This document shows, one piece after another, positions 81-47,479 of a DNA stretch of 47,479 bases. Both the position numbers and the translations under genes were made by a program. Within the stretch, counting starts at the first letter, position 1. Each line of letters opens with the position of its first letter. The stretch covers positions 1 to 47,479 of the forward strand of contig JAAFIC010000014.1 in the NCBI GenBank assembly GCA_013298565.1, read 5' to 3'. Source of the stretch: Alphaproteobacteria bacterium (GTDB lineage: Bacteria; Pseudomonadota; Alphaproteobacteria; Elsterales; Elsteraceae). The notes under the pieces were generated by a model. The model was not told the DNA's origin. It saw only the letters and a list, made by a program, of their open reading frames with translations, and did not search any database.

Positions 81-482
81 CTACCCCCGCATCTGCCGCA
101 GAAACTCGATCTCTTCCGGGTGCCGGTTGAGAAGCTCAATTAGGGCTACCGCCGCGTCGCTAGGCGGGGTTGCGCCGCTTTCGTACTTCTGGAACGCCCG
201 GCGTCCGCCGCCGATAAGCCGCCCGGCTTCTTCCTGGGTAAGTTTCAGCCGATCTTTGCGGATGTGGCGGACGTGCGCGCCGTAGGCGGCCTTCAGCTCA
301 AGAAAGATACGATCCGACTCGGCTGTATCGGCACCCGTGTGAATACTGTCGCTATCGTCATCAGGATACCAGCCCGGCATATCGACCATTCGCGTGAGAG
401 TGCCGAAGATCACTGCCTGCGGTCGGACATCCCGGCGCAGAAGCTTGCCAGTGACAGGGTGGATGAGGGGGTCATCGGTCAT
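81..482 (-). CDS. mqsA: MqsA-family antitoxin, zinc-free variant
   Basis: This 133-residue protein is the antitoxin of an MqsR/MqsA pair. The C-terminal half (about residues 75-120) is an Xre-type helix-turn-helix with the family signature LTQEEAGRLIGGG followed by RAFQKYESG, which binds the operon's own promoter. The N-terminal part, which should neutralise the toxin, has no cysteines, so it cannot form the zinc site of E. coli MqsA. It instead has the PGWYPDD...SIHTG segment found in a shorter alphaproteobacterial branch. The ATG at 480-482 lies inside the 3' end of the toxin gene (11-nt overlap), so the two are translationally coupled. Autoregulation is expected from the family; no operator was identified. 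Confidence 0.85.
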   Translation of the reverse strand: MTDDPLIHPVTGKLLRRDVRPQAVIFGTLTRMVDMPGWYPDDDSDSIHTGADTAESDRIFLELKAAYGAHVRHIRKDRLKLTQEEAGRLIGGGRRAFQKYESGATPPSDAAVALIELLNRHPEEIEFLRQMRG

Positions 483-798
483 GATGCACTTCCTTGAACG
501 ACGTTAGGGTAAGATCGATGAGCGTCTCACCCGCAAACTTCAGGTAGAGCCAGCGTTGGCCCCAAGGTAGAACGTAGGTATCGTGCCAAATCTTAGGGTT
601 TGGCGGGCTATGAGCGGTTTCAGATTTTACGAAATCAGCTCGCTTCAGCGCCCGGACCGCATCAATAATGCCCCTATCGCTGTACCCCAGCGACCGGGCG
701 CTTCTGAGAGCCGTCAATGTCACACTCCAGCTATCGACCGTGCCAAACTTCGCTTGGACGAGCGCAAGATCGTGATGGGGTGTCCGCTTTACCGTCAC
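472..798 (-). CDS. mqsR: MqsR-family mRNA interferase toxin
   Basis: MqsR toxins are RelE-fold ribonucleases that cleave mRNA, preferentially at GC(U/A) sites. The core matches the family: KRTPHHDL at the start, a RSARSLGYSDRGIIDAV helix, ADFVKSETAHS, an IWHDTY segment and a C-terminal LYLKF...LTSFKEV. No ATG is present. The GTG at 796-798 gives a start (VTVKRTPH) equivalent to E. coli MqsR (MEKRTPH) and a 108-residue product close to the usual ~100. A TTG 39 nt further out (837) is also possible. It precedes mqsA and overlaps it by 11 nt, the toxin-first order of mqsRA loci. Confidence 0.85.
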   Translation of the reverse strand: MTVKRTPHHDLALVQAKFGTVDSWSVTLTALRSARSLGYSDRGIIDAVRALKRADFVKSETAHSPPNPKIWHDTYVLPWGQRWLYLKFAGETLIDLTLTSFKEVHHDR

Positions 799-844
799 AG
801 TGATATGCACCTTAAAGGTTAATCGTGCAAGCGACAAACAGCCC

Positions 845-2107
845 CTACGCCCCGTACCGCTGCGTTAACCGCCCGATGCCGCCCAACTGCCGGGCGATGT
901 GCTCGGCGGCGTGGGTGAGGGTGTCGTCTGAGAGGTCTTGGCGGAGGGATTTCACCTCGTCCAGCACCGCCTGCCACGTCTTATGCCCGTCGATACGCGG
1001 CAGCATAGCGATGGCGAGGGTGGGGAGCGGCAGGGTTAGGTCAAGCCCTTCATTGCCCACGGTCAGGCGTCCGCCCCGGTCCATCGCCGCGAGCAGGCGT
1101 TGCGGGTCGATGTCCTTGAAAGCCGGAATAGCGGCGCGGTCGCCCGGCGGGGGCGGGGCGATGGGGTTTTCAGCGCGGACCACATAACCGGCGTGGCGCG
1201 CAAGATTGCCCGCCACCTGTTCGGCCAAGGCGGCTTGGGCTTCCGAAGACAGGCTTTCAGCGCGCTTTAACACAGCGGGGTCAGTGAAATAGGTGTTGAG
1301 TCGATAGCGCGCAGGCTCCACCCATTCGGCCAAGCGCAGGCCCGCGCCGTGGATGAGCGCGAACCAGTCCGGCACGGTATAAGCGCGGTCGCGGGCGTGG
1401 AGCAGCAGATCGAACAACCCCGCCTCGCCGCCATCGAGATGATCGCGGATCACGCCATTCCGCCGCAGCCAGTTGGTGCTGGGAAGCTGGGCGAGCACGC
1501 GCTTGGCTTGGCTGATGCGCTCTTTCGGGGAGCCTTCGGCGGCGAGAGTTCGCAGAATCGCCTGCACATCGTACACGCCGCGCCGCCCGTAAGCGCCATA
1601 GAGCATCAGCCCAATCCCGCCGTGGGGCGCGAGCACTGAAACCAGCGCGCGCAACCCCGCATCGGGATCATCCAAATGGTGCAGCACGCCGCAGCTATCA
1701 ATGTAATCGAAAGGATCATGCCCCTGGCTCGGCAGATCGAGCAGCGAGCCAGTGGCAAAACGGATAGCAACGGTTTCGGAAGCCTCCAACCCCCGCGCCG
1801 CAATCCGCGCTTCCGCCACGGCCCGCGCGGCGTGGGAAGGATCGAGATACAGCAGCTCGGCCTGCCGCCCGGCCTCGGCGAGCTGTTGCGCCAGCATGGT
1901 CAGCGCATCGCCGGACCCGCCGCCCGCAATAAGAACCCGAACGGGCCGCGCCGGCCACCGCCCGCCGAACACGCTTTGCTCGATTTCCTGAAGATGGCTG
2001 GGCGAGCCAACAATCAGCCGCTTCCCCTCGTCGCGCGGGTCGCGGTGCGGATAGGGCAGGGCTTCATACTGCGCCGCCACAGCGGCATCGGGGGAGAGCT
2101 TGGACAT
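845..2107 (-). CDS. Class I SAM-dependent methyltransferase with extra C-terminal region
   Basis: The protein is 420 residues from the ATG at 2107. Residues 57-68 (VRVLIAGGGSGD) form the glycine-rich SAM-binding loop of class I methyltransferases. LLYLDPS is the acidic end of strand 2, and YIDSCGVLHHLDDP (about 135-150) resembles motif IV. The N-terminal YEALPYPHRDP segment is found in proteins annotated as methyltransferases acting on unknown substrates. The last ~130 residues do not belong to the methyltransferase fold and I do not recognise them. An upstream in-frame start at 2143 would add 12 low-complexity residues and is less likely. Substrate unknown. Confidence 0.8.
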   Translation of the reverse strand: MSKLSPDAAVAAQYEALPYPHRDPRDEGKRLIVGSPSHLQEIEQSVFGGRWPARPVRVLIAGGGSGDALTMLAQQLAEAGRQAELLYLDPSHAARAVAEARIAARGLEASETVAIRFATGSLLDLPSQGHDPFDYIDSCGVLHHLDDPDAGLRALVSVLAPHGGIGLMLYGAYGRRGVYDVQAILRTLAAEGSPKERISQAKRVLAQLPSTNWLRRNGVIRDHLDGGEAGLFDLLLHARDRAYTVPDWFALIHGAGLRLAEWVEPARYRLNTYFTDPAVLKRAESLSSEAQAALAEQVAGNLARHAGYVVRAENPIAPPPPGDRAAIPAFKDIDPQRLLAAMDRGGRLTVGNEGLDLTLPLPTLAIAMLPRIDGHKTWQAVLDEVKSLRQDLSDDTLTHAAEHIARQLGGIGRLTQRYGA

Positions 2108-2152: not shown

Positions 2153-2317
2153 TTAGGCTTTAACCGCTGGCTCCAACAGCCGAGCAAGGAATGTTTCCAC
2201 GTCTTCCACTTCAACCGCTTCGTATCGACCGGCACCTAAATCCGCTAGCCCGACGGCTGCTGCGGCGCGAAGGACTGCGGGTTTGATACTGTGCCTGATT
2301 TCGTGTTGTTCAAGCAT
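2153..2317 (-). CDS. Small 54-residue protein, possibly an orphan antitoxin-like protein
   Basis: A short frame from ATG 2315-2317 to TAA 2153-2155 has a good ribosome-binding site (AGGA seven bases before ATG) and normal codon use. The product starts MLEQHEIRHSIKPAV, continues through an alanine-rich helix, then GLADLGAGRYEAVEVEDVE and a final helix FLARLLEP. The pattern helix / 'GLAD..AGR..EV.DV..FLA.L' resembles the C-terminal toxin-binding tail of ParD/RelB-type antitoxins, but there is no clear DNA-binding half and no adjacent toxin. It may be a remnant or a stand-alone small protein. The left copy of an 11-bp direct repeat (2326-2336) lies immediately upstream. Confidence 0.55.
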   Translation of the reverse strand: MLEQHEIRHSIKPAVLRAAAAVGLADLGAGRYEAVEVEDVETFLARLLEPAVKA

Positions 2318-2325
2318 AATTGAGT

Positions 2326-2336
2326 CCTAATTGAAT
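2326..2336 (+). repeat. Left copy of 11-bp direct repeat flanking the AT-rich MTase/AlkB island
   Basis: CCTAATTGAAT occurs here and again, exactly and in the same orientation, at 3897-3907. The two copies bracket the AT-rich block that carries the methyltransferase and AlkB genes. The change from GC-rich to AT-rich sequence falls close to both copies. This could be a target-site or attachment-site duplication left by insertion. Confidence 0.6.
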
Positions 2337-2367
2337 AACATGACATCATAGTATATTCATATATAAA

Positions 2368-2973
2368 TTAGAAAATCATATTTCTAAATGTTATCGATAC
2401 TCTTCGAGAGCGACTCTGATTTCCATGTAAAGTGGGATCATTCTTGCGAGGAGCTATCTCATGTGTCCATTTATAGCGCGCGTCATCCGTCATGACGATA
2501 ATTGATCTGGGCGGCAGCATAATTTCGTGAGTTATGCTCTTGTTCTTCACTTGAGCAAATTTCATGACGACCGACGATAGCAAAGATAGAGAGGCAAGTT
2601 CGGGGCCAAAGCAGGGAACGCAATCGACATGCGCGCTGATACCCTGGCCCGGCAGGTACTCGTTAACAATGGCTTGATCTGGTTTATTGAGGAATATAGC
2701 CCTCTTAATCAGCCGATTGCAAAGCGCGTCAACCCACGTCGGCAACGGACCAAGGTAATTATCAGCTTTAGAGGAGCGCGCTTTATAGTCGTACCGATAG
2801 CCATAGTGTTGAACGCGTCGTTTTAGGTCTGAAATCCACTCGGATGTATCGATATAATTTACGAGGCGTCGCTCTTCTTCTTCTGTAATAAAATTTTCAT
2901 GAAGAAGTAGACCTTTTATATCCGGTGCCTTGCGGCACGTTTGTTCAATTTCTGCTAGCAAATCCATTGTCAT
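2368..2973 (-). CDS. AlkB-like 2-oxoglutarate/Fe(II) dioxygenase
   Basis: This 201-residue protein has the double-stranded beta-helix signatures of the AlkB family. H115-x-D117 (ISAHVD) and H171 (KWTHEI) are the iron ligands, and R191-x5-R197 (RVSITFR) is the 2-oxoglutarate and substrate arginine pair. AlkB enzymes oxidatively remove N-linked methyl groups from nucleic acids or, in some branches, proteins; the substrate here cannot be read from sequence. The chosen ATG (2971-2973) has GGAG in front and overlaps the stop of the upstream methyltransferase by four bases (ATGA), so the two are co-translated. Base composition is much more AT-rich than its neighbours, a sign of transfer. Confidence 0.88.
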   Translation of the reverse strand: MTMDLLAEIEQTCRKAPDIKGLLLHENFITEEEERRLVNYIDTSEWISDLKRRVQHYGYRYDYKARSSKADNYLGPLPTWVDALCNRLIKRAIFLNKPDQAIVNEYLPGQGISAHVDCVPCFGPELASLSLLSSVVMKFAQVKNKSITHEIMLPPRSIIVMTDDARYKWTHEIAPRKNDPTLHGNQSRSRRVSITFRNMIF

Positions 2974-3788
2974 AAGACTCCGGCAGAGTAACAAACCTTA
3001 GAAGGTGTATTGCGTATTTGGCGAATACTGCCATCTGGCCTCAGGTAGGCACACTGAGGAAAAGCCATCTGAGGCGCAGATAATACTATTCCAAATTTTG
3101 AAGCCCGTGCTACAAAATCTCTTAGAGCGTTGCCAATCGCTGGTTCAGCAAAAACATAGCGGAGATGGCATCCAGGGGCCAGACGCTTATTTAAATTGAT
3201 CATCGATTCTAATATATGATTGCAATCAGTGTCAGAAAGTGAATTTTGGTTCAAAAGATAGCTTGATATAAAATACACATCTGAATTTATTGGTTGAGTA
3301 AAGGTATTGGTCTGGCTTTTAAAGGATCCAAGATTTTGAAATGAATATCGATTAGAATTTAAAGATATTTTATATCGTTCATTAAAAAATATTTCGCAGA
3401 TTTTATTCATCTCTAAATCAATATCAACTGGATAATATTGCAGTTCTAGCGGAGATGACGTGATCGATGTAATAACCTCACTGAGGGCAAGAGCCGACGT
3501 TCCTGGGCCAGAACCCAGATCAACTAAAATAGCCGCCGTTGTACTAGTTGTTATTGTGGGTAGAATATGCAGTAACGTATCAAAATGCTGCTTCATATAA
3601 TTTAGGCAATAAAAATATGCGCTAGATTTAGTTCTATTGCTATCATTTGGAGGTCCAGCATTTTGTAGTATGGTAATATTATTTGGGTCTCGGCGAAAAC
3701 TCTCCCACGTGGGCTTGATTGTGAGATCAGAGATAATTGTGTTTCCTACAATTTTCGCGAACAAGGTTTCAAAATCACCAAGCGACAT
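2970..3788 (-). CDS. Putative SAM-dependent methyltransferase paired with AlkB-like gene
   Basis: The 272-residue product has a Rossmann-type SAM site at about residues 87-97 (ILVDLGSGPGT) followed by YYPVDID, the acidic end of the next strand. YFISSYLLNQ is in the position of a motif IV strand. The layout (helical N-terminus ending in YFYCLNYMKQHF, then the SAM domain) is loosely like Rsm22-type or other nucleic-acid methyltransferases, but the family is not certain. The start at 3788 has a GGAG ribosome site. It is the first gene of a two-gene AT-rich unit, and its stop overlaps the start of the AlkB-like demethylase. A methylase and a demethylase in one transcript suggest they act on the same modification; that is inference. 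Confidence 0.75.
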   Translation of the reverse strand: MSLGDFETLFAKIVGNTIISDLTIKPTWESFRRDPNNITILQNAGPPNDSNRTKSSAYFYCLNYMKQHFDTLLHILPTITTSTTAAILVDLGSGPGTSALALSEVITSITSSPLELQYYPVDIDLEMNKICEIFFNERYKISLNSNRYSFQNLGSFKSQTNTFTQPINSDVYFISSYLLNQNSLSDTDCNHILESMINLNKRLAPGCHLRYVFAEPAIGNALRDFVARASKFGIVLSAPQMAFPQCAYLRPDGSIRQIRNTPSKVCYSAGVL

Positions 3789-3896
3789 TCTCAGGCTCCA
3801 AGGATAAATAGCAGTTCCATCAAAAATAAAGCATGTAAGTTTAAAATATGTTAATGGTTGTAATGGTTCGGAAATATATCTCGCAATAAATCATTC

Positions 3897-3907
3897 CCTA
3901 ATTGAAT
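3897..3907 (+). repeat. Right copy of 11-bp direct repeat flanking the MTase/AlkB island
   Basis: Exact second copy of CCTAATTGAAT, eight bases beyond the stop codon of the chrR-like gene. With the copy at 2326-2336 it defines an insert of about 1.56 kb. No recombinase gene lies inside the block. Confidence 0.6.
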
Positions 3908-3914
3908 GCCCCCC

Positions 3915-4580
3915 CTAAAACCGCACAAACCTATTCACCACCCACCCCATCACGCCCGTCAGCTTGAGCGTGCCATCGACCACGGCGAGGCAGATGCAGT
4001 CGCCGTCATCGTCCGCGATGGGGGTGTGGGTGTGGTCGGCGGTGGAGATCGAGAGGTCGCCGGGCAGATAGTGACCGAATTGGTCGCTAAAGCCGCCCTT
4101 CAGCACCAGCACATATTCGGTGCCGCCGTGCGTATGTTCGGGCATAGCCCCGCCTGCGGCAATCCGCATGAGGCGCGTGCGGCCCCCTGGCGTGCGGCTG
4201 GGGGTGGTGAGGCGGATTTCCGACAGCGCGCCGGTCACGCGCTTCCACGGGAGCGGTTTGGCCGGCGTGGTGGCAATGCCTGCCAGCGCCCGGCGCACGG
4301 GGCGCGGCATCCACGGCTCGCCCGCCAGCGGGGCATCGGGCGCGGAGGCTTCGGGGAGGGCGAGTTTGGCCAGCACGGTCGCAAGATCAGTCTTCACGTC
4401 TGTCGGCGGCAGGCTCTCCAGCATCGCGCCGCCCACCGCTTCCAGCGCCTGCACTTCTTTGCGGCAGTCCGGGCAGTAGGTGAGGTGGGTTGCCACCAGC
4501 AGGCTAATCGCCTCCGGCAAGGTTCCGGCGGCATAATCCATCAACAGCGAGCCGGACGGGTGGAAGTGGGGCATGGTCAT
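3915..4580 (-). CDS. chrR: ChrR-family zinc anti-sigma factor with cupin domain
   Basis: The 221-residue protein has the two domains of Rhodobacter ChrR. The N-terminal zinc-binding anti-sigma domain shows HFHPSGSLLMDYAAG and HLTYCPDC, giving the His/His-x3-Cys-x2-Cys ligand set (H32, C36, C39). The C-terminal cupin (about residues 110-205) contains PEHTHGGTEYVLVLKG and LPGDLSI. In the family, ChrR holds the sigma factor inactive until singlet oxygen or organic peroxides act through the cupin domain. It overlaps the upstream sigma gene by four bases (4577-4580), the usual rpoE-chrR operon arrangement. Confidence 0.92.
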   Translation of the reverse strand: MTMPHFHPSGSLLMDYAAGTLPEAISLLVATHLTYCPDCRKEVQALEAVGGAMLESLPPTDVKTDLATVLAKLALPEASAPDAPLAGEPWMPRPVRRALAGIATTPAKPLPWKRVTGALSEIRLTTPSRTPGGRTRLMRIAAGGAMPEHTHGGTEYVLVLKGGFSDQFGHYLPGDLSISTADHTHTPIADDDGDCICLAVVDGTLKLTGVMGWVVNRFVRF

Positions 4581-20667: not shown

Positions 20668-21425
20668 TCATAACCAATAGCTGACGGTTGCCGCAATGCA
20701 GATGGCAGCCATAAAGACAGTTGCTCTGCGGTCGTATCGGGTTGCGATACGCCGGAAGTCTTTGAGGCGGCAAAACATGCGTTCAATGGCGTTTCGCTTG
20801 CGGTACAGGGCTGGTGAGAAACAGTTTTTCCAGCGCCGGTTAGCCTTTGGCGGGATGTTGGGAGCCGTTCCCTTGCTCTCGATTTTTCGGCGGACGGCAT
20901 TGCTGTCATAGCCCTTGTCGCCATGCAGAAGTGCGGTTTTCGGCAGCGCGTCGAGCAGGGCATCGGCAGCTTTGCAGTCCGCCACCTGTCCGCCGGTCAG
21001 CAGAAACGCGATGGGGCGGCAAAAAGCATCGGTCAGCGCATGGATTTTCGTTGTCCGACCACCCCGCGAGCGACCAATCGCCTGCGCCCGTTCCCCCCTT
21101 TTCCGCCCGCAGCACAGCGGTGCGCTTTCACAGCGGAACTGTCGATCAACACCTCCGCCGGAGGCCCGCCTGCAGCGGCAAGCGCCTTGAAAATCCCCTG
21201 CCAGATGCCTTTGTCGCCCCAGCGGACGAAGCGATTATAGAGCGTCTTGCGCGGCCCGTAGATCGACGGCGCATCGACCCAACGGCACCCCGATTTCAGC
21301 ACATGAATGATGCCGCTGATGACCCGCCGGTCGTCCACCCGCGCCTTCCCGCGCGTATCCTGCGGAAGATGCGGTTCAAGCCGCGAAAACTGCTCGTCGC
21401 TCAGCCAGAAAGCTACGTCGCTCAT
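20668..21425 (-). CDS. IS5-family transposase made by -1 frameshifting (OrfA-OrfB)
   Basis: OrfA starts at ATG 21425 (MSDVAFWLSDEQFSRLEPHL) and contains the N-terminal DNA-binding part and the first catalytic Asp in VLIDSSAVKAHR. OrfB supplies IGRSRGGRTTKIHALTD, the second Asp in LHGDKGYDSNAVR and the Glu in RNAIERMFCRLKDF, completing the DDE triad. The frames join by a -1 shift at AAAAGGGGGG (21093-21102) into a 252-residue protein, the normal arrangement for this group. OrfA alone would end at 130 residues (stop at 21033). Confidence 0.92.
21093..21102 (-). other. Slippery sequence for transposase frameshift
   Basis: On the minus strand AAAAGGGGGG follows GGC GGA. Slipping back one base after the G-run changes reading from GGN GRR... 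to ER AQAIGRSRGG, which is the conserved continuation of IS427-type transposases. The combined length (758 nt plus one re-read base) divides by three. Confidence 0.75.
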
Positions 21426-22228
21426 TCAAAGCCTCCATCACGAGGCTTTGAATCATAACTGCATTGGCTTGAAAAGAGAGTTTATGGGTCCGGAGCCTAA
21501 TTAACGCGCCATAACCATTTAAAATATACGTATTTTTGTGCTTTAAATAAGCATTGCTTTTTTCTAATTCGCTGATGGCGTTTTTAATTTTATTTATGTA
21601 TTTAAGAGTTAAATTTATGTTTTTAACATGTGCATACATGTAAGAAAGCCCAGAATATGATTCTATCCTCTGCCGTGGGTCAAGTTCATCAATGTCAAAG
21701 CCATAACGGCTTTCGAGATTGATAAAAATCTCTATATAGCGGTACTTTTTTTCGTCGTCGTCTGCGGCTCTGAGTATGTGACCTGCATAAGTCATAGCAC
21801 TGATAACAGTATATTTTATTTCCGGATTTGGATCGTTTTCAAAATTCTTTAGAAGATCATTTAATATTTTGTTGGTCTTATCGAAAGGATCAGCTTCATA
21901 TTTTGTTGGATTTATCAAACTGTTATTTAAATCTCGCGCATATTCGAGCCGGCGCGCGCGGGCGAGTTTGTCCGTAGCTTCCTGCGGTGTCTGGGAAAAT
22001 TGGTTAAAGTATTCGATTATAGCTTTGTAATTTGGATCGTTTTGAGGCAGGGCCTTGGTAATTCTTGCCAACTCCGCGGTTGCCGATTCAGGTGATGGTA
22101 AGCTTGACGGAGTGCATCCTGCCAAACCGAGCGCCACCAAAGCATATATAAAAAACCGCATTACATTCTCTTCCAAAGTCGCTGAATATCGAAGACGGCG
22201 GTGTCTCTCACCAGGGCTGAGAGTCCCT

Positions 22229-24133
22229 CTACCCCATCACCGGCCGTGCCAGCGTTTGCAGCTTTTGCCGGGCGGCGCGCACGTAGTCTTGCAGGCGCGG
22301 ATCGGGGTTGTTCTCGAAGCGGCGGAGGATGTCTTCGGCGGTGGCTTTGGCGTCGGCGGGGCGGTTGGTGGTTTCCATCAGGCGCTGACGGAGGCTGAGG
22401 GCGCGGGCGACGTTGGAGAGAATATCGGCATCTTGCGAGGGGCCGAAGCGCTGAACCACGCGCTCAACGTCGGCTAAAGCCGCCTCGGTTTGCGGGGTTG
22501 GCAGGCTTTGGCGGGCGAACGCCCCGTTCACCGCCGCACGCGCGATATAGGGTTGCAGCAGGGGGGCATCGCTATCGCTGTAGCGCTGAAGCAGCGGCTC
22601 GACAATCGCAAGGGCCTTGGCCCAATCAATCGGCGGCGTCCGCCCTATCAGCCGAAGTTGGTTCTCATAGGCCAAAAAATGCTGGCTGATGATGAAGGGC
22701 GTCGAAGTCGGCGTAACCCGCCCTTCAAGGCGCATCATCAGCGCGTCGATCTCGCTTAAGGAGGTTCCGTTGAGCGCCACCAGGGCAATTACCCGCTGGC
22801 TAAGGCTGCGCGCGGTGAACTCATCCTTACGTTCCGCCGGGGCTTGTGCTGCGAGAGTGTCGGACAGATCGAGATACGTCTTGGCGTCGGTGGGGCGATT
22901 AAGGCGGGCGTAGGTTCGGCCCAGATCGACGGCGATTTCGTGACGAACGCTAAGACCGTCGCCCGGTGGCAGGCGCTCTAAGCGGCGCTGGGCGGCGAGG
23001 TAACTGTCCAGCGCTTCTTCGTAGCGGGGCGGGGTGGTTTCGCTCAGGCTGTCGCCTTCCAGCCCCAGGGCTTCGGCCACTCGGCCTATACTGACCCCAT
23101 CGGTTTCCGCGCTGAAGCGGGCCAGAAAATCGCGAACGGCGGCGCGTTGAGCTTCAAGGCGGCGCGGTTTGGCGTCGCGGTGAGCATAGATGATGTTGAG
23201 CGCAACCCGCGACACCACGCGGCGCGTGCGGATTTCGGAGGCTTTGGAAAAGCGATTCAGAACATCGTCGCCAATCGCCAGCGCTTCGGTTTCGCGCCCG
23301 AGCCGATAGAGGGCCAAGCCCTTTTGCAACAGCGCATCGGCAATATAAAAATCCTTCCCCAGAATTCCCATTGGTTCGGCCAGGGTTAGCGCGTCTTCGG
23401 CAAAAGGAATGGCTTTAGCGGCATCGCTGGGAGTGTTGGAAAATGCCCGCGCGGCCTCTACCCGCGCCATCAACAACCGTTCTTGCACGGCGGGCTGCCT
23501 GCTGCCGCGAAACCGGGTGACGAGCGTGTCCCAGGTTTCCAGCGCTGCCGTGCGGTCTTTCGGCGCATCGAGCAGCAAGCCTAAGCCCTTATCATAGAGG
23601 GCAGAGGCGGTAATCTCTTCCGCATCATCGCCGCTGAGGGCTTTGGCGCGCTCCAACGCGCCCTCGTACAGCGCGCGCTTATCCGCAACGGGCGTATCGC
23701 CGCCAAGCCGCAGCCGCATGACGCCAAGGTTGAGGAAGGACCGGGCAACAGTGGCGGCAATCTCGGGATCGGCGTTGCCGTCGAACTGGTCCATAATCCG
23801 GCGGTAATCGGCAGCCGCACTGCGATAATGGGCGGGGGTGAGCCGGGTGAGCGCCAGCGCGCGGGTGAAATAGCCGTACACCAGCACGCGCTGGTTTTCC
23901 GGTGTTTGGGCCGTGCGAGCAGGATCGGCCAAACGGTCGAGGATCGCCTGATAGGCCGGGTCGCGCGCCGGTAGGCTCGCGAGCTTCTGGCGATATTCAA
24001 ACATGCTGGCCTCGGGAACGCTCACTGTTGAGCGCAAGGCCGAAGCGGGATCGTTGGCGCAACCACCAAGCAGGGCAATCCCGCTGCCAAGGCCCAAGAG
24101 GAGAGCGCAAAAACGAAAGCGGGGGCGCAGCAT
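22229..24133 (-). CDS. TPR-like repeat lipoprotein, paralogue 2
   Basis: The 634-residue protein has a lipoprotein signal peptide ending in LLGGC (Cys at about residue 25) and is otherwise helical, with repeating units of ~45-60 residues ending in patterns like RF...DPE/QPxxxxxVARxxxN, which suggests TPR-like solenoid repeats. ATG 24131-24133 follows AGGATAG at six bases. It shares with the gene at 24.7-26.6 kb the start motif DPAYQAILDRLADPARTxQT and the whole repeat layout, and with the IS-split gene downstream the same N-terminal region. A consensus promoter with a palindrome lies 35-65 bases upstream. Function unknown; probably an outer or inner membrane periplasmic scaffold. Confidence 0.8.
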   Translation of the reverse strand: MLRPRFRFCALLLGLGSGIALLGGCANDPASALRSTVSVPEASMFEYRQKLASLPARDPAYQAILDRLADPARTAQTPENQRVLVYGYFTRALALTRLTPAHYRSAAADYRRIMDQFDGNADPEIAATVARSFLNLGVMRLRLGGDTPVADKRALYEGALERAKALSGDDAEEITASALYDKGLGLLLDAPKDRTAALETWDTLVTRFRGSRQPAVQERLLMARVEAARAFSNTPSDAAKAIPFAEDALTLAEPMGILGKDFYIADALLQKGLALYRLGRETEALAIGDDVLNRFSKASEIRTRRVVSRVALNIIYAHRDAKPRRLEAQRAAVRDFLARFSAETDGVSIGRVAEALGLEGDSLSETTPPRYEEALDSYLAAQRRLERLPPGDGLSVRHEIAVDLGRTYARLNRPTDAKTYLDLSDTLAAQAPAERKDEFTARSLSQRVIALVALNGTSLSEIDALMMRLEGRVTPTSTPFIISQHFLAYENQLRLIGRTPPIDWAKALAIVEPLLQRYSDSDAPLLQPYIARAAVNGAFARQSLPTPQTEAALADVERVVQRFGPSQDADILSNVARALSLRQRLMETTNRPADAKATAEDILRRFENNPDPRLQDYVRAARQKLQTLARPVMG

Positions 24134-24167
24134 GAGCTATCCTGACGATCAGACGATGTTCAGGATG

Positions 24168-24196
24168 ATTATAAGATTTCTGCTAAATTTCTGCAA
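24168..24196 (-). promoter_or_regulatory. Sigma-70 promoter with palindrome for lipoprotein paralogue 2
   Basis: On the minus strand TTGCAG (24191-24196), a 17-base spacer and TATAAT (24168-24173) make a near-consensus promoter. The -35 box is overlapped by the palindrome GCAACGC-C-GCGTTGC (about 24193-24207). The same arrangement precedes paralogue 3. Confidence 0.75.
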
Positions 24197-24232
24197 CGCG
24201 GCGTTGCGAGCGCGGGCCATCCCCCCGGAATA

Positions 24233-24256
24233 AACGGGGTTGGCGATGGCCCCGTT
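24233..24256 (-). terminator. Candidate terminator after the GlsB-like operon
   Basis: AACGGGG and CCCCGTT (7-bp stem, 10-base loop), read on the minus strand and followed by TATT, lies 12 bases beyond the stop of the small membrane protein gene. The T-run is short, so it may be weak. Confidence 0.5.
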
Positions 24257-24268
24257 CGTCCTCGCGGG

Positions 24269-24409
24269 TTAGTTCTTCTGAAGGGTAACGCCGCCCTCGC
24301 CAATGCGGAGTTCCAGCGCTTTCGGGCGGGTTTGCTCATAATAGAGATAGCCGCCAAGGCCAATCAGCGCCGCGACGAGCACGCCGATAACAAAGCCATT
24401 CCGGTTCAT
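24269..24409 (-). CDS. Small single-span membrane protein
   Basis: A 46-residue frame from ATG 24407-24409 encodes MNRNGFVIGVLVAALIGLGG, a clear N-terminal membrane anchor, then YLYYEQTRPKALELRIGEGG and a short tail. It overlaps the stop of the GlsB-like gene by four bases (ATGA), indicating co-translation. The pattern (anchor followed by 'EVKIGKGGVEVE'-type tail) is seen in small proteins encoded beside transglycosylase-associated membrane proteins. Function unknown. Confidence 0.7.
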   Translation of the reverse strand: MNRNGFVIGVLVAALIGLGGYLYYEQTRPKALELRIGEGGVTLQKN

Positions 24410-24666
24410 GCTGCCACCCGTCGCACTAAACCAACAACGACCAGCAGAATAATCGCGCCCACAGTGGCGTGCAGCACCGCGCCCAGGAAACCCGAGCCGA
24501 TCACCAACCCAAAGCGCGGGAGCACCAACCCCGCAACAAACGCGCCAACAATCCCAACGGCGATATTGCCCAGCAGACCAAAGCCGGACCCCGCCACAAC
24601 AACCCCCGCGAGCCAACCCGCCAGCGCCCCGATGAGCAGAAAAATGAGAAGGCTTTCGATACCCAT
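24406..24666 (-). CDS. GlsB/YeaQ/YmgE family stress-response membrane protein
   Basis: This 86-residue, very hydrophobic protein has three glycine-rich membrane segments: LLIFLLIGALAGWLAG, LLGNIAVGIVGAFVAGLV and LHATVGAIILLVVVGLV. That is the transglycosylase-associated (GlsB/YeaQ/YmgE) family, small inner-membrane proteins linked to general stress with no proven activity. AGGAGA lies eight bases before the start (24666). It is followed by the small membrane protein with a 4-nt overlap. The pair sits between two of the lipoprotein paralogues. Confidence 0.9.
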   Translation of the reverse strand: MGIESLLIFLLIGALAGWLAGVVVAGSGFGLLGNIAVGIVGAFVAGLVLPRFGLVIGSGFLGAVLHATVGAIILLVVVGLVRRVAA

Positions 24667-24746
24667 GTGGGGTTCTCCTGTGATCTTTACCCCCCTTGGA
24701 GGGGGGTGTGCTTAGAACAACGCCGGAGGGGCGGAAAGGTTCCGGG

Positions 24747-26627
24747 CTAAGGCTTTGGCGTAACCGGGGCCGGGAGGGCGGGAACGGCAGGAAGCGTTAA
24801 CCCGCGCAGCGCTTCACGCCCTTTCGTTACCCATTCCACGACGCGCGGGTCGCTATCGGCCCCATAGAGGGCAATCAGTTTTTCGAGGGTTTGAATTGCT
24901 CCAGGCCGATCGCTGCCTTGGAGCGCCCCACTGCGGAAGGTGAGGGCTTGGGCGACTTGTGCCCGGACAGCGGGGTTCTGACTATCCTGGTAGCGGCTGA
25001 CGACAAGATCACTATCTTCCAAAATCCCCTTGTTTCGGGGTGGCTGCAAATTTGAGTAAAGAACGATGCGATTAACGTAGGTTTGTGCGAGTTGGCCCGA
25101 AAATTTCGGATCGAGGCGATGGCCGTAGCGCTGGATCATCGGGTTAACAAAAGCCAGCGCCGATTCCCAAGCGCCAGGAGATTTGTTGAGAAAGGCAATG
25201 AGATAATTTGTGTTAGCCCAAAGTATGTTTTCGATGATATTGGGATCATCAGACTTAAAAAACTCTTGATCCATATTATCAATAATTGGCGATATTTTAT
25301 TATAATAATTTATTCCCATTGCTTTAAATAAAGAAACTTGATTTGCGTATATATCGGAGCGAACTCTTTCGATTGATAGCGTTTTTTGCGGGTTATTTTT
25401 TGTTATATAGAGCAACTCATCAAGTTTGTTTATATTTGAGACGGCTTTGTTTTCGTTCTTGGTCAGCACGTTCATCATCGCCAAACCTCGATACACGGCA
25501 GCCTTATCGTCATTGATAATCGTCGTGGGGTCTTGAGCGAGGCGTTTTTCTATTTCTTGAAAAGCTTCGATAAATTTTGGCGTTGACTCGTGAGCCATAC
25601 CAAATACTAAGAGCGATTGGAGCATGAAAGCGCGAATAGATTGGTCGGATTCATCGCGGAATTTAGTTTGGATATCCTGATTGAGTGCCTCGATATCAGC
25701 CAATTTTCCGGGAAATTTATCCCGTTGATAGATAAGAATATTGACTGCGGCGCGTGCGGCGAAACGACGTTGAAGTATATTGACCGAGGTATAATTGGTT
25801 TCCACCAAAGATCGGCTCAGGCTGAGGGCCTCATCATTTTTTCCCAAATTAAAGAGGCCGCCGGTTTTCTTGAGCGTCGCGTCGGCTTTCCATTGTTCTT
25901 GAACGTCTGCCGCAAGCGTCGGCACCAAGGTTAGCGCATCATCAGCAAAGGCAATGGCCGTTGAGGGTGTATTCTGGGTTTCATCGGCAAGGCTAACCAG
26001 CGCCGAAACCACCCACACGCGCACCTCCGGCAATGGGCTTGTACGGTAACGCTGCGTAAGGGTTTCAAGGCCAATAAGTCCCTGCTTGCGCTGCTCCGGG
26101 GTTCCATAAAGCAGGTCAAAGTTCATATTGTGATAGGCGAGAACCGCAATTTCCTGCGCTTTGGCCCCTTGGGTTCCCTGAATGCGGGCCAAGGCACGAT
26201 TGTAACCATCCAAGGCTTCGGGCAGGCGGCGGGGGTCAATCTTCGTTGCACTGGTCGCGGCATTGAGGAGTGAGGCGCTAACCATGAGATCGATCAGCGC
26301 ATCAGGGTTCTGCTCGTACTCGGTAACGAGGCGGGTATAGTCGTTATTGGCGGCCACCCAATCGGGCGGCGTGAGCTTCTCGAACGCGCGGGCGCGGTTA
26401 AACAAAGCGTCCGCCCGGTTATACTCGCTTTCCACTGTTTGCTGCGTGCGCGCCGGGTCGGCCAGCCGGTCCAGCAAGGCTTGGTAGGCGGCATCGCGCG
26501 GCGACAAACCTTTCATCGCCCTCGCAATATCGGCCACGGTCGCGCTGGGCGGGAGGGAGGATTGGGCCGCACACCCCAGCACGGACAACGCTAAACCGCA
26601 GAGAACAAGAGACAGACGCAGGCGCAT
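24747..26627 (-). CDS. TPR-like repeat lipoprotein, paralogue 3
   Basis: The 626-residue protein begins with a lipoprotein signal (MRLRLSLVLCGLALSVLGC, Cys at 19). It then shows the family start DAAYQALLDRLADPARTQQT and helical repeats with recurring RY/RF...P-E/D-VR.WV motifs, ending with a Pro/Ala tail. ATG 26625-26627 is preferred over a TTG at 26642. The central part (about 25.1-25.9 kb) is AT-richer than the ends, like the IS-split paralogue. It has its own promoter upstream, almost identical in design to that of paralogue 2. No enzymatic motif is seen; role unknown. Confidence 0.8.
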   Translation of the reverse strand: MRLRLSLVLCGLALSVLGCAAQSSLPPSATVADIARAMKGLSPRDAAYQALLDRLADPARTQQTVESEYNRADALFNRARAFEKLTPPDWVAANNDYTRLVTEYEQNPDALIDLMVSASLLNAATSATKIDPRRLPEALDGYNRALARIQGTQGAKAQEIAVLAYHNMNFDLLYGTPEQRKQGLIGLETLTQRYRTSPLPEVRVWVVSALVSLADETQNTPSTAIAFADDALTLVPTLAADVQEQWKADATLKKTGGLFNLGKNDEALSLSRSLVETNYTSVNILQRRFAARAAVNILIYQRDKFPGKLADIEALNQDIQTKFRDESDQSIRAFMLQSLLVFGMAHESTPKFIEAFQEIEKRLAQDPTTIINDDKAAVYRGLAMMNVLTKNENKAVSNINKLDELLYITKNNPQKTLSIERVRSDIYANQVSLFKAMGINYYNKISPIIDNMDQEFFKSDDPNIIENILWANTNYLIAFLNKSPGAWESALAFVNPMIQRYGHRLDPKFSGQLAQTYVNRIVLYSNLQPPRNKGILEDSDLVVSRYQDSQNPAVRAQVAQALTFRSGALQGSDRPGAIQTLEKLIALYGADSDPRVVEWVTKGREALRGLTLPAVPALPAPVTPKP

Positions 26628-26663
26628 AGAACGGACTCTCAAAATCTAGCGGTAGAGAGCATG

Positions 26664-45402: not shown

Positions 45403-46467
45403 TCACTCTGCCGGGGCAATATCGGCGATAACCACGCGCTCGTTCCGCACCCGCCCGTCGCGCTGAACGGTGATTTCGATGGGTTTGCCGATGCCGATTT
45501 GATCGAGCAGGGCGGCGAGATTGGCGATTCCGGCGACGGGTTGACCCGCGACATGGGTAATGACATCGCCCAAGCGCCCGCCGCTCCGGTCGATACCTTT
45601 CAGTCCCAGGCGCGCTGCCGGGCTTCCGGGGATAACCGAGGCCACGATGAGGCCGGACACGCCAAACCGCGCCGCAAGCTCGTCTGGCGCGGCAAGAATG
45701 CCGATACCGGGCCGGGGAATGCGCTTATCGCGGATGAGAATGGGGACGATGCGGTTGACGGTATCGACCGGCACGGCAAAGCCGACGCCCGCCGAGGAGC
45801 CGGAGGCGGAGAGAATGGCCGTGGTCACGCCGATCAACCGTCCGGCGCTATCGAGCAGAGGTCCGCCGGAGTTGCCGGGGTTGATGGCGGCATCGGTCTG
45901 GACTGCGCCGATCACTTCGCGTCCCGGCGCGGTGGGCAAGCGCCGATCCAGCGCGGAAATGATCCCAGAGGTCAGCGTGCGCGACAGGCCGAACGGGTTG
46001 CCGATGGCATAAACGCTCTGGCCAACCTTAAGGTCCGCCGAACTGCCCAACGGAATTGGACGCAGCGGCACACGGCTATCGGCCAGCTTTACCACCGCCA
46101 AATCATGATCCGGCGACACGCCAATCACCCGCGCCTCGTGGGCTTCCCCCCGGTCCAAGCGCACGCGCACACTCTGCGCGCCTTCAACCACATGATAATT
46201 CGTCACCACATGCCCGGCGAGATCCCACACAAAGCCCGACCCCGCGCCGCCATCGCCATTCGGATCGCCCGTAAAGATGTAGGCGACCGACGGCGCAGCA
46301 TTCTCGAACAGTGCCACCGTGTGCTGCTCATGCTCAGTCAGCGACCCGCGCGCATCAACAGGCCGAGGCCGATCCACGACCAGCCACACCGACCGAACGA
46401 AGCGCTCCCCCATCCACAGAGCGGCGATGAGGAGAAGGCCGAGAAGGAGCAGGCGGGAGAGCTTCAT
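45403..46467 (-). CDS. HtrA/Deg-type serine protease with one PDZ domain
   Basis: The 354-residue protein has an N-terminal signal anchor (residues 4-19, SRLLLLGLLLIAALWMG) and a trypsin-like domain. The catalytic triad is complete: H92 (TNYHVV), D122 (HDLAVV) and S200 (NPGNSGGPL). One PDZ domain follows (about 255-345, SGLIVASVIPGSPAARLGL and GDVITHVAGQPV). The one-PDZ, membrane-anchored layout is that of DegS, although housekeeping DegP-like functions are also possible. Its ATG overlaps the stop of the HNH nuclease gene by four bases (ATGA) with GGAAGAG just upstream, so it is translationally coupled to the defence-like operon. Confidence 0.93.
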   Translation of the reverse strand: MKLSRLLLLGLLLIAALWMGERFVRSVWLVVDRPRPVDARGSLTEHEQHTVALFENAAPSVAYIFTGDPNGDGGAGSGFVWDLAGHVVTNYHVVEGAQSVRVRLDRGEAHEARVIGVSPDHDLAVVKLADSRVPLRPIPLGSSADLKVGQSVYAIGNPFGLSRTLTSGIISALDRRLPTAPGREVIGAVQTDAAINPGNSGGPLLDSAGRLIGVTTAILSASGSSAGVGFAVPVDTVNRIVPILIRDKRIPRPGIGILAAPDELAARFGVSGLIVASVIPGSPAARLGLKGIDRSGGRLGDVITHVAGQPVAGIANLAALLDQIGIGKPIEITVQRDGRVRNERVVIADIAPAE

Positions 46468-47087
46468 AAAGACTCTTCCTGAATAATGCCTTGATATTTC
46501 AATGCAGAGTAGAGAAAGGGTGCCCGAAATTTTAGTTCATCACTATCTCCACCCATGCGGTACGCTTTTATTAACTGGCTGCGCCTTCTCTTCAAATTCT
46601 TACTATTAAGTCTAAGTGTGTTGATTGTCATTCGGCATGCTTCAATCCAATCTTCATGCCCTGGAAACTCCCGGAGATTTACAGAGCCATCATCTATATT
46701 GAGATATAAAAAATCCTCTGGAATCGAAATCGGGTCGATGATCTCTTCTGAATCCCCCTTGTTGTAGTTGATTTTTTTTAGGCAAAGACGGTAGTTAGCC
46801 CACTCATAGGCCCAATCTTTATGTTTTACCTTGGGCTTAAAGTGGTCAATTGAGACTTTTTGATTATCTATTTCTTCGTCAAAATCGATATATAAGCCTG
46901 TGAATGCACAAACCCCATTGTATATATTATATATCTCTCGTGTGTAATCTGCCCAAAATGCTTTGAAATGCTTAGATTGCAGCGGCTCAGTCCGCTGCTC
47001 TTCGACTGTTGCGAGGTGAGTTCGCCCCTTTTGGCGCACGCCTGCGTCAAACCAACTCGGTTCATCGGCAAGTGTAAGCGGGATCAT
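46464..47087 (-). CDS. HNH endonuclease, PtuB-like (TIGR02646 type)
   Basis: The 207-residue protein from ATG 47085-47087 (MIPLTLADEPSWF) shows an HNH nuclease core: CAFTGLYIDF, VSIDHFKPKVKHKDWAYEWANYRLCLKKINYNKGD. The DH pair and the N/K residues are in the order of the metal-dependent HNH fold. This arrangement is typical of the TIGR02646 family, the nuclease (PtuB) of Septu-type anti-phage systems. Its start overlaps the stop of the ATPase gene (ATGA), the usual PtuA-PtuB coupling. Composition is AT-rich against its GC-rich neighbours, as expected for an acquired defence module. Confidence 0.82.
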   Translation of the reverse strand: MIPLTLADEPSWFDAGVRQKGRTHLATVEEQRTEPLQSKHFKAFWADYTREIYNIYNGVCAFTGLYIDFDEEIDNQKVSIDHFKPKVKHKDWAYEWANYRLCLKKINYNKGDSEEIIDPISIPEDFLYLNIDDGSVNLREFPGHEDWIEACRMTINTLRLNSKNLKRRRSQLIKAYRMGGDSDELKFRAPFLYSALKYQGIIQEESL

Positions 47088-47479
47088 GGCTGACCTCGCA
47101 GCGTCAGTCCTTTTTGCTTGGCAAGCCAAACCCAGTGGGTCCGCTCCAGATGATCCGGGGCGAAATGCGCCCGCATCAACCGATCAACTTCGTCAATCTC
47201 GGCTTGGCTTGGCTTTTCTTGCTCAAAGAGTGCGGCCCGCTTTTTGAGTGCCTCTGCATTCGGCTCCGGTATATCGTCAGTATTAAACATATCACTCATG
47301 AGCCATTCACCGACGGAGCCGAGCTTTTCAAACTCAACCTCCCTCAGTTCCACGCGGCCCCGCTCGCCCGGAGCGCCGGGGGTTAGCTGAAGGTCCAGCA
47401 ACTTGTCTATCGCCGGATCGAAATGCGGCTCAATCCCCGTTAGCACGATGGGCGAATGGGTGGTGCAGATGACTTGAAC
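47084..47479 (-). CDS. C-terminal part of an ABC/SMC-like ATPase, PtuA-like (partial)
   Basis: The last 131 codons of a larger gene are visible; the 5' part lies beyond the right edge. The first residues read VQVICTTHSPIVLTGIEP, the Walker B-following 'TTHSP' H-loop of OLD/RecF/PtuA-type ATPases. The rest is an acidic and helical tail with VDRLMRAHFAPDHLERTHWVW. Followed directly by an HNH nuclease with a 4-nt overlap, it fits the ATPase of a Septu-like defence system. The N-terminal Walker A region would have to be checked outside this window. Confidence 0.75.
   Translation of the reverse strand, partial: VQVICTTHSPIVLTGIEPHFDPAIDKLLDLQLTPGAPGERGRVELREVEFEKLGSVGEWLMSDMFNTDDIPEPNAEALKKRAALFEQEKPSQAEIDEVDRLMRAHFAPDHLERTHWVWLAKQKGLTLRGQP

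Follow-up and report, generated by a model that had tools for sequence, protein, structure and literature searches.

Where a gene for a SAM-dependent methyltransferase is followed, with overlapping ends, by a gene for an oxygenase of the AlkB superfamily, one may ask what the two enzymes do together and how they came to lie side by side. We analysed such a pair in a stretch of 47,479 nucleotides from an alphaproteobacterium of the family Elsteraceae (GenBank assembly GCA_013298565.1, contig JAAFIC010000014.1), referred to here as the window. The oxygenase proved to be ALKBH8-like, and the substrate of the bacterial ALKBH8 enzymes has been in question since a knock-out was reported to leave the eukaryotic target unchanged (PMC4051686).

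A recently acquired gene pair

Both genes are encoded on the minus strand. The first (2970..3788) specifies a methyltransferase of 272 aa, a member of the family in our alignment A3, with an intact motif I (DLGSGPGT), and the second (2368..2973, with its ATG at 2973) a 2OG/Fe(II) oxygenase of 201 aa. Four nucleotides, ATGA (2970..2973, minus strand), are shared by the stop codon of the methyltransferase and the start codon of the oxygenase, which suggests translational coupling and agrees with the original prediction of an AT-rich two-gene block with a 4-nt overlap. The GC content of the pair is 0.412, compared with 0.591 in the rest of the window.

On the right, the block is flanked by a conserved chromosomal gene for a ChrR-family anti-sigma factor (3915..4580, minus strand), and on the left by a chromosomal methyltransferase gene (845..2104, minus strand) that is unrelated to the one in the pair and neighbours ChrR in relatives. 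These two flanking genes are only 29 bp apart in a genome of the same family (G008), while two congeners carry other genes in the gap: G002 has a toxin-antitoxin pair of the parDE type along with an esterase, and G001 an esterase and a gene of no assigned function (names read from translations). The AlkB-like gene was absent from all eight family members sampled and the methyltransferase from the other relatives searched. The base composition of the block, its absence from these family members and the adjoining flanks in a family relative make it well supported that it is foreign and was acquired horizontally, as had been proposed. The accompanying description of the flanks as GC-rich housekeeping DNA does not hold just outside the left repeat, where a truncated parD-like antitoxin remnant (2153..2317, minus strand) marks the edge of the block. 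This ORF matches the C-terminal half of the antitoxin whose gene is intact in G002, and parE is gone. The left edge is a deletion or replacement which removed parE and half of parD; most simply, the lineage of the window has lost the greater part of parDE together with the esterase and gained the pair. An MqsR/MqsA-type toxin-antitoxin pair also lies near the island (81-837, minus strand), so that, counting the parD remnant, the stretch is a variable one and rich in toxin-antitoxin genes.

The direct repeat and the mode of arrival

An 11-bp direct repeat, CCTAATTGAAT, had been noted at the ends of the block. Its coordinates and orientation were borne out (2326..2336 and 3897..3907, both on the plus strand), and these are the only two copies in the whole 3.02-Mb genome. 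The right copy stops at 3907, and from position 3908 onwards the sequence is again homologous to the sister genome G001. Exact direct repeats of at least 11 nt at a spacing of 300-3000 bp abound in the window (100 pairs versus 47 in shuffles), so the repeat by itself is weak evidence of insertion. Its placement, however, is rare by chance: when the edges were set from homology with relatives and without regard to the repeat, only 1 of 4000 island shuffles had a repeat within 20 bp of both, and 5 of 4000 had one within 40 bp.

The expected precise empty site with a single copy of CCTAATTGAAT was not found in G001, G002 or G008, even when two mismatches were allowed, and the left edge cuts the parD antitoxin remnant; a target-site duplication is therefore only suggested. 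The idea that the block is cargo moved in trans fared no better, as a search of the block for terminal inverted repeats and other signs of mobilisation returned none. These observations, the deletion running through parDE and the lack of convincing flanking repeats at the other bare pairs described below all favour arrival by illegitimate recombination, the repeat being a coincidence or a scar, over insertion of a mobile unit with target-site duplication. The low odds of finding an 11-bp repeat by chance at each edge of homology argue the other way; we rate arrival by illegitimate recombination as an even chance.

The oxygenase is ALKBH8-like

The second gene had been called an AlkB-like demethylase. 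Its product does belong to the AlkB superfamily (PF13532) but resembles ALKBH8 rather than the E. coli-type enzyme. Among solved AlkB homologues the best match is human ALKBH8 (3THP/3THT; E=1.2e-29, residues 20-186 of 201), followed by a DNA N6-methyladenine demethylase (3e-20), and assignment as an E. coli-type AlkB repair enzyme was rejected on its weaker match (6e-5). The HxD...H iron ligands and C-terminal arginines (H115, D117, H171, R190, R191 and R197) are invariant in alignment A1, indicating by sequence an ALKBH8-like oxygenase, which sits on a long branch of the family tree where its placement is unsure.

In eukaryotic ALKBH8 a methyltransferase and a hydroxylase are joined and act on wobble mcm5U (PMC4051686). 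This protein (RRM-AlkB-methyltransferase; mcm5U to (S)-mchm5U in tRNAGly) likewise combines an ALKBH8-type oxygenase with a SAM methyltransferase, whereas in the window the genes are separate, the RRM is absent and the methyltransferase has no recognisable Trm9-type match in the libraries used. A bacterial ALKBH8 group from Rhizobium, Roseobacter, Rickettsia and Agrobacterium has been described as being without a methyltransferase domain (PMC4051686). The window oxygenase is of this family and likewise single-domain; its locus differs in showing a linked methyltransferase gene, of a type rarer than the BMT5-like one discussed below. In an A. tumefaciens ALKBH8 knock-out the wobble position of tRNAGly(UCC) was unchanged, which shows that a bacterial ALKBH8 leaves the wobble base of the eukaryotic target unmodified, and the R. 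etli enzyme repairs etheno lesions (PMC4051686); the eukaryotic target is thus unlikely and repair possible. The recombinant ALKBH8s from R. denitrificans and R. felis had low or negligible activity in repair, and the authors favoured RNA modification for the canonical bacterial ALKBH8s while leaving the substrate open (PMC4051686).

A class I methyltransferase of a rare type

The window methyltransferase matched no Pfam family above the cut-off. Its predicted structure, of moderate confidence (pLDDT 68, pTM 0.73), is that of a class I Rossmann methyltransferase, and its homologues conserve a DxGxGPxT motif, Y60 and H68. The best full-length fold match to this model (pLDDT 68) was mitoribosomal METTL17/Rsm22 (Z 16.3, rmsd 3.7, 228 aligned), with histamine methyltransferase less than one Z unit away, and a homologue at locus L139 weakly matched PF09243 (E=0.0076). 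An EgtD-type histidine methyltransferase was considered and rejected (PF10017, 14.3 bits against a cut-off of 23). In PADLOC the protein matched the methyltransferase profile C3a159 (1e-9), the only match there, with no complete anti-phage system. A tblastn search of phages, plasmids and viral contigs gave no match, and a single-sequence search of 398 genomes of the phylum found the window alone, for which reason linkage was traced through AlkB and then with profiles.

The pair recurs across phyla

Scanned for the oxygenase family, bacterial and archaeal genomes yielded 478 relatives, of which the best 80 were kept. Methyltransferase homologues adjoin the oxygenase in Chryseobacterium, Sphingobacterium, Pedobacter, Flavobacterium, Cytophagales, a Rhodospirillales bin and Picosynechococcus plasmids, so that the pairing spans Alphaproteobacteria, Bacteroidota and Cyanobacteria. 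The combination had been thought unusual; its recurrence in different phyla shows that it is not. Searches independent of AlkB gave the same picture. The methyltransferase occurs in 8 of 395 Bacteroidia genomes, a sample that takes in two already reached via AlkB (G748 and G792, apparently the genome of L106), and 7 of the 9 loci adjoin an ALKBH8-like gene, the loci in G904 and G910 having no AlkB nearby. In 385 alphaproteobacterial genomes there were two strong matches, the window genome and G651, both near an ALKBH8-like gene. A search for homologues of the two proteins side by side had been proposed as a check, and such loci were thus found. Conversely, the methyltransferase was missing altogether from 17 genomes whose ALKBH8-like gene is unlinked to a partner of this type.

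The two proteins also co-diverge (Mantel r=0.87, 0 of 2000 permutations; r=0.43 for distant pairs), and this together with the conserved adjacency upholds the view that the genes form a functional unit. Both features weigh against alkylation-damage repair, in which the methyltransferase would be an unrelated passenger of an oxygenase that mends etheno or methyl lesions. The activity of the R. etli ALKBH8 on etheno adducts (PMC4051686) speaks for repair, and the closer kinship of the oxygenase family to ALKBH8 than to E. coli AlkB against it; on balance we hold it to be very improbable.

Bare pairs like that of the window were found at L139, L192 and, in degenerate form, L190. Each is AT-richer than its surroundings, and those at L139 and L192 lie among housekeeping genes.

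A second, unrelated partner

At many of the remaining alphaproteobacterial loci we found a second METHYLTRANSFERASE, a BMT5-like methyltransferase encoded upstream of the oxygenase gene and usually overlapping it. By Pfam, 27 of 46 coupled upstream genes are BMT5-like (PF10354), and by profile the type is present at 36 ALKBH8-like loci, overlapping AlkB at 31. No locus carries both types (36 BMT5-like versus 19 window-type loci), and on the tree the paired AlkBs group together (7 changes versus 17.9 when shuffled). Neither methyltransferase was detected for 57 of 112 sampled AlkB ORFs, a count which includes viral contigs and contig ends, rests on mechanical ORFs with partners sought on the same strand within 2 kb, and contains two loci (L108 and L166) with a window-type methyltransferase nearby. 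An AlkB-independent search with PF10354 found 6 of 289 alphaproteobacterial genomes, in 5 of which the gene adjoins an ALKBH8-like one; one of the five, G053, had come up earlier through AlkB. We found no prior report of this linkage in the literature searched, most subscription journals lying outside its coverage.

The BMT5-like pairs have the same gene order and tight overlap as the window pair, but comparison of their profiles detected no relationship between the methyltransferases (hhalign E 0.17), and homology between them was dismissed. The exchange of one methyltransferase for another at an unchanged position speaks strongly for methylation and the oxygenase being parts of one process.

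In five loci (L065, L088, L093, L118 and L134) the overlapping upstream slot is taken by a DUF488 protein. ALKBH8-like genes also occur on 18 viral contigs (L144-L161), some near portal-like genes, and neither methyltransferase type was detected there.

The nature of the common process can be read in different ways. AlkB-type enzymes take N-methyl groups off bases, and the BMT5-like family is named for uridine N3-methylation in rRNA, which yields an N-methyl pyrimidine of the kind that AlkB enzymes can remove. Such chemistry would suit the writer and eraser of the original prediction, in which the methyltransferase adds a base methyl and the oxygenase strips the same methyl, giving a switchable mark. 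However, co-expression from an overlapping operon would set up a futile cycle unless the two were separately controlled, and the R. denitrificans and R. felis ALKBH8s have negligible or low repair activity (PMC4051686). We consider a reversible mark unlikely.

Larger cassettes and the question of defence

In Chryseobacterium, Sphingobacterium and relatives, homologous methyltransferase and AlkB genes are adjacent as in the window and are preceded by genes for an SF1 helicase and a 2CompART/2CompARG-domain protein; the window pair, in contrast, has neither beside it. In Flavobacterium a Dna2/SMUBP2-like helicase and the methyltransferase form one fused protein, and in G651 the methyltransferase comes first, then an SF1 helicase and last a 748-aa protein with the oxygenase at its end. 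One genome, G884, has two copies of the helicase - ART - methyltransferase - AlkB cassette, on two contigs (L188 4468-10257 and L189 2537-8322), with 99.7% identity over 5.8 kb. A KTI12 match of the cyanobacterial kinase was set aside as probably a general P-loop match.

The Bacteroidota partner genes (SF1 helicase, ADP-ribosyltransferase/glycohydrolase) point to a larger and perhaps conflict-related system. The pair might accordingly be a stripped-down form of a mobile module for marking or healing nucleic acid under attack by phages or toxins. The larger cassettes of Bacteroidota, G651 and cyanobacterial plasmids (SF1 helicase, ADP-ribosyltransferase/glycohydrolase, kinase-WYL), the C3a159 match, the patchy distribution, the nearly identical copies in two contigs of one genome and the occasional defence-type neighbours (Abi or PLD/Snf2 helicase, at two loci) could all be so explained. 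Against this, no defence genes adjoin the pair in the window, the bare pairs at L139 and L192 have housekeeping surroundings, and 7 of 9 neighbours tested with PADLOC had no match. An AAA_11 helicase partner elsewhere in the host genome was also looked for and not found. For the window pair, a conflict or RNA-repair module seems to us a minor possibility.

A proposed role in RNA modification

The reading that we tentatively prefer, at somewhat less than an even chance, is that the pair is an acquired RNA-modification cassette in which methylation is followed by ALKBH8-like oxidation of an RNA nucleotide, the methyltransferase being exchangeable. One transcript would yield the class I methyltransferase and the ALKBH8-like 2OG/Fe(II) oxygenase together. 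The methyltransferase would methylate a nucleotide, with a uridine-type base of tRNA or rRNA as the likeliest target; the oxygenase would then hydroxylate the methylated base or its side chain, much as in animal ALKBH8, where methyltransferase and oxygenase are fused. The pair would be one variant of a broader bacterial scheme, in which an ALKBH8-like oxygenase works with either a window-type or an unrelated BMT5-like methyltransferase.

More speculatively, bacterial ALKBH8s in general may act in two-enzyme modules for RNA modification in which unrelated families have taken over the part of the methyltransferase; the rarer type, that of the window, would have entered mobile cassettes alongside helicases and ADP-ribosylation enzymes, to form an unrecognised RNA-modifying conflict or repair system. 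We regard this wider scheme as doubtful. ALKBH8-like oxygenases are in any case often encoded, and often overlap, with one of two unrelated methyltransferases, which are thereby candidate upstream enzymes and open the substrate question to direct experiment.

Other features of the window

No Rfam RNA family was found across the window, and counts of promoters and terminators were not above those in shuffles. Three related lipoprotein-like genes form a tandem array (21033-26642, minus strand), the last of which has apparently been cut down by an IS5-like transposase fragment (21033-21425). Near the end of the window, an AT-rich ORF (46464-47129, minus strand) resembles an HNH endonuclease (CAFTG...IDHFKPK).
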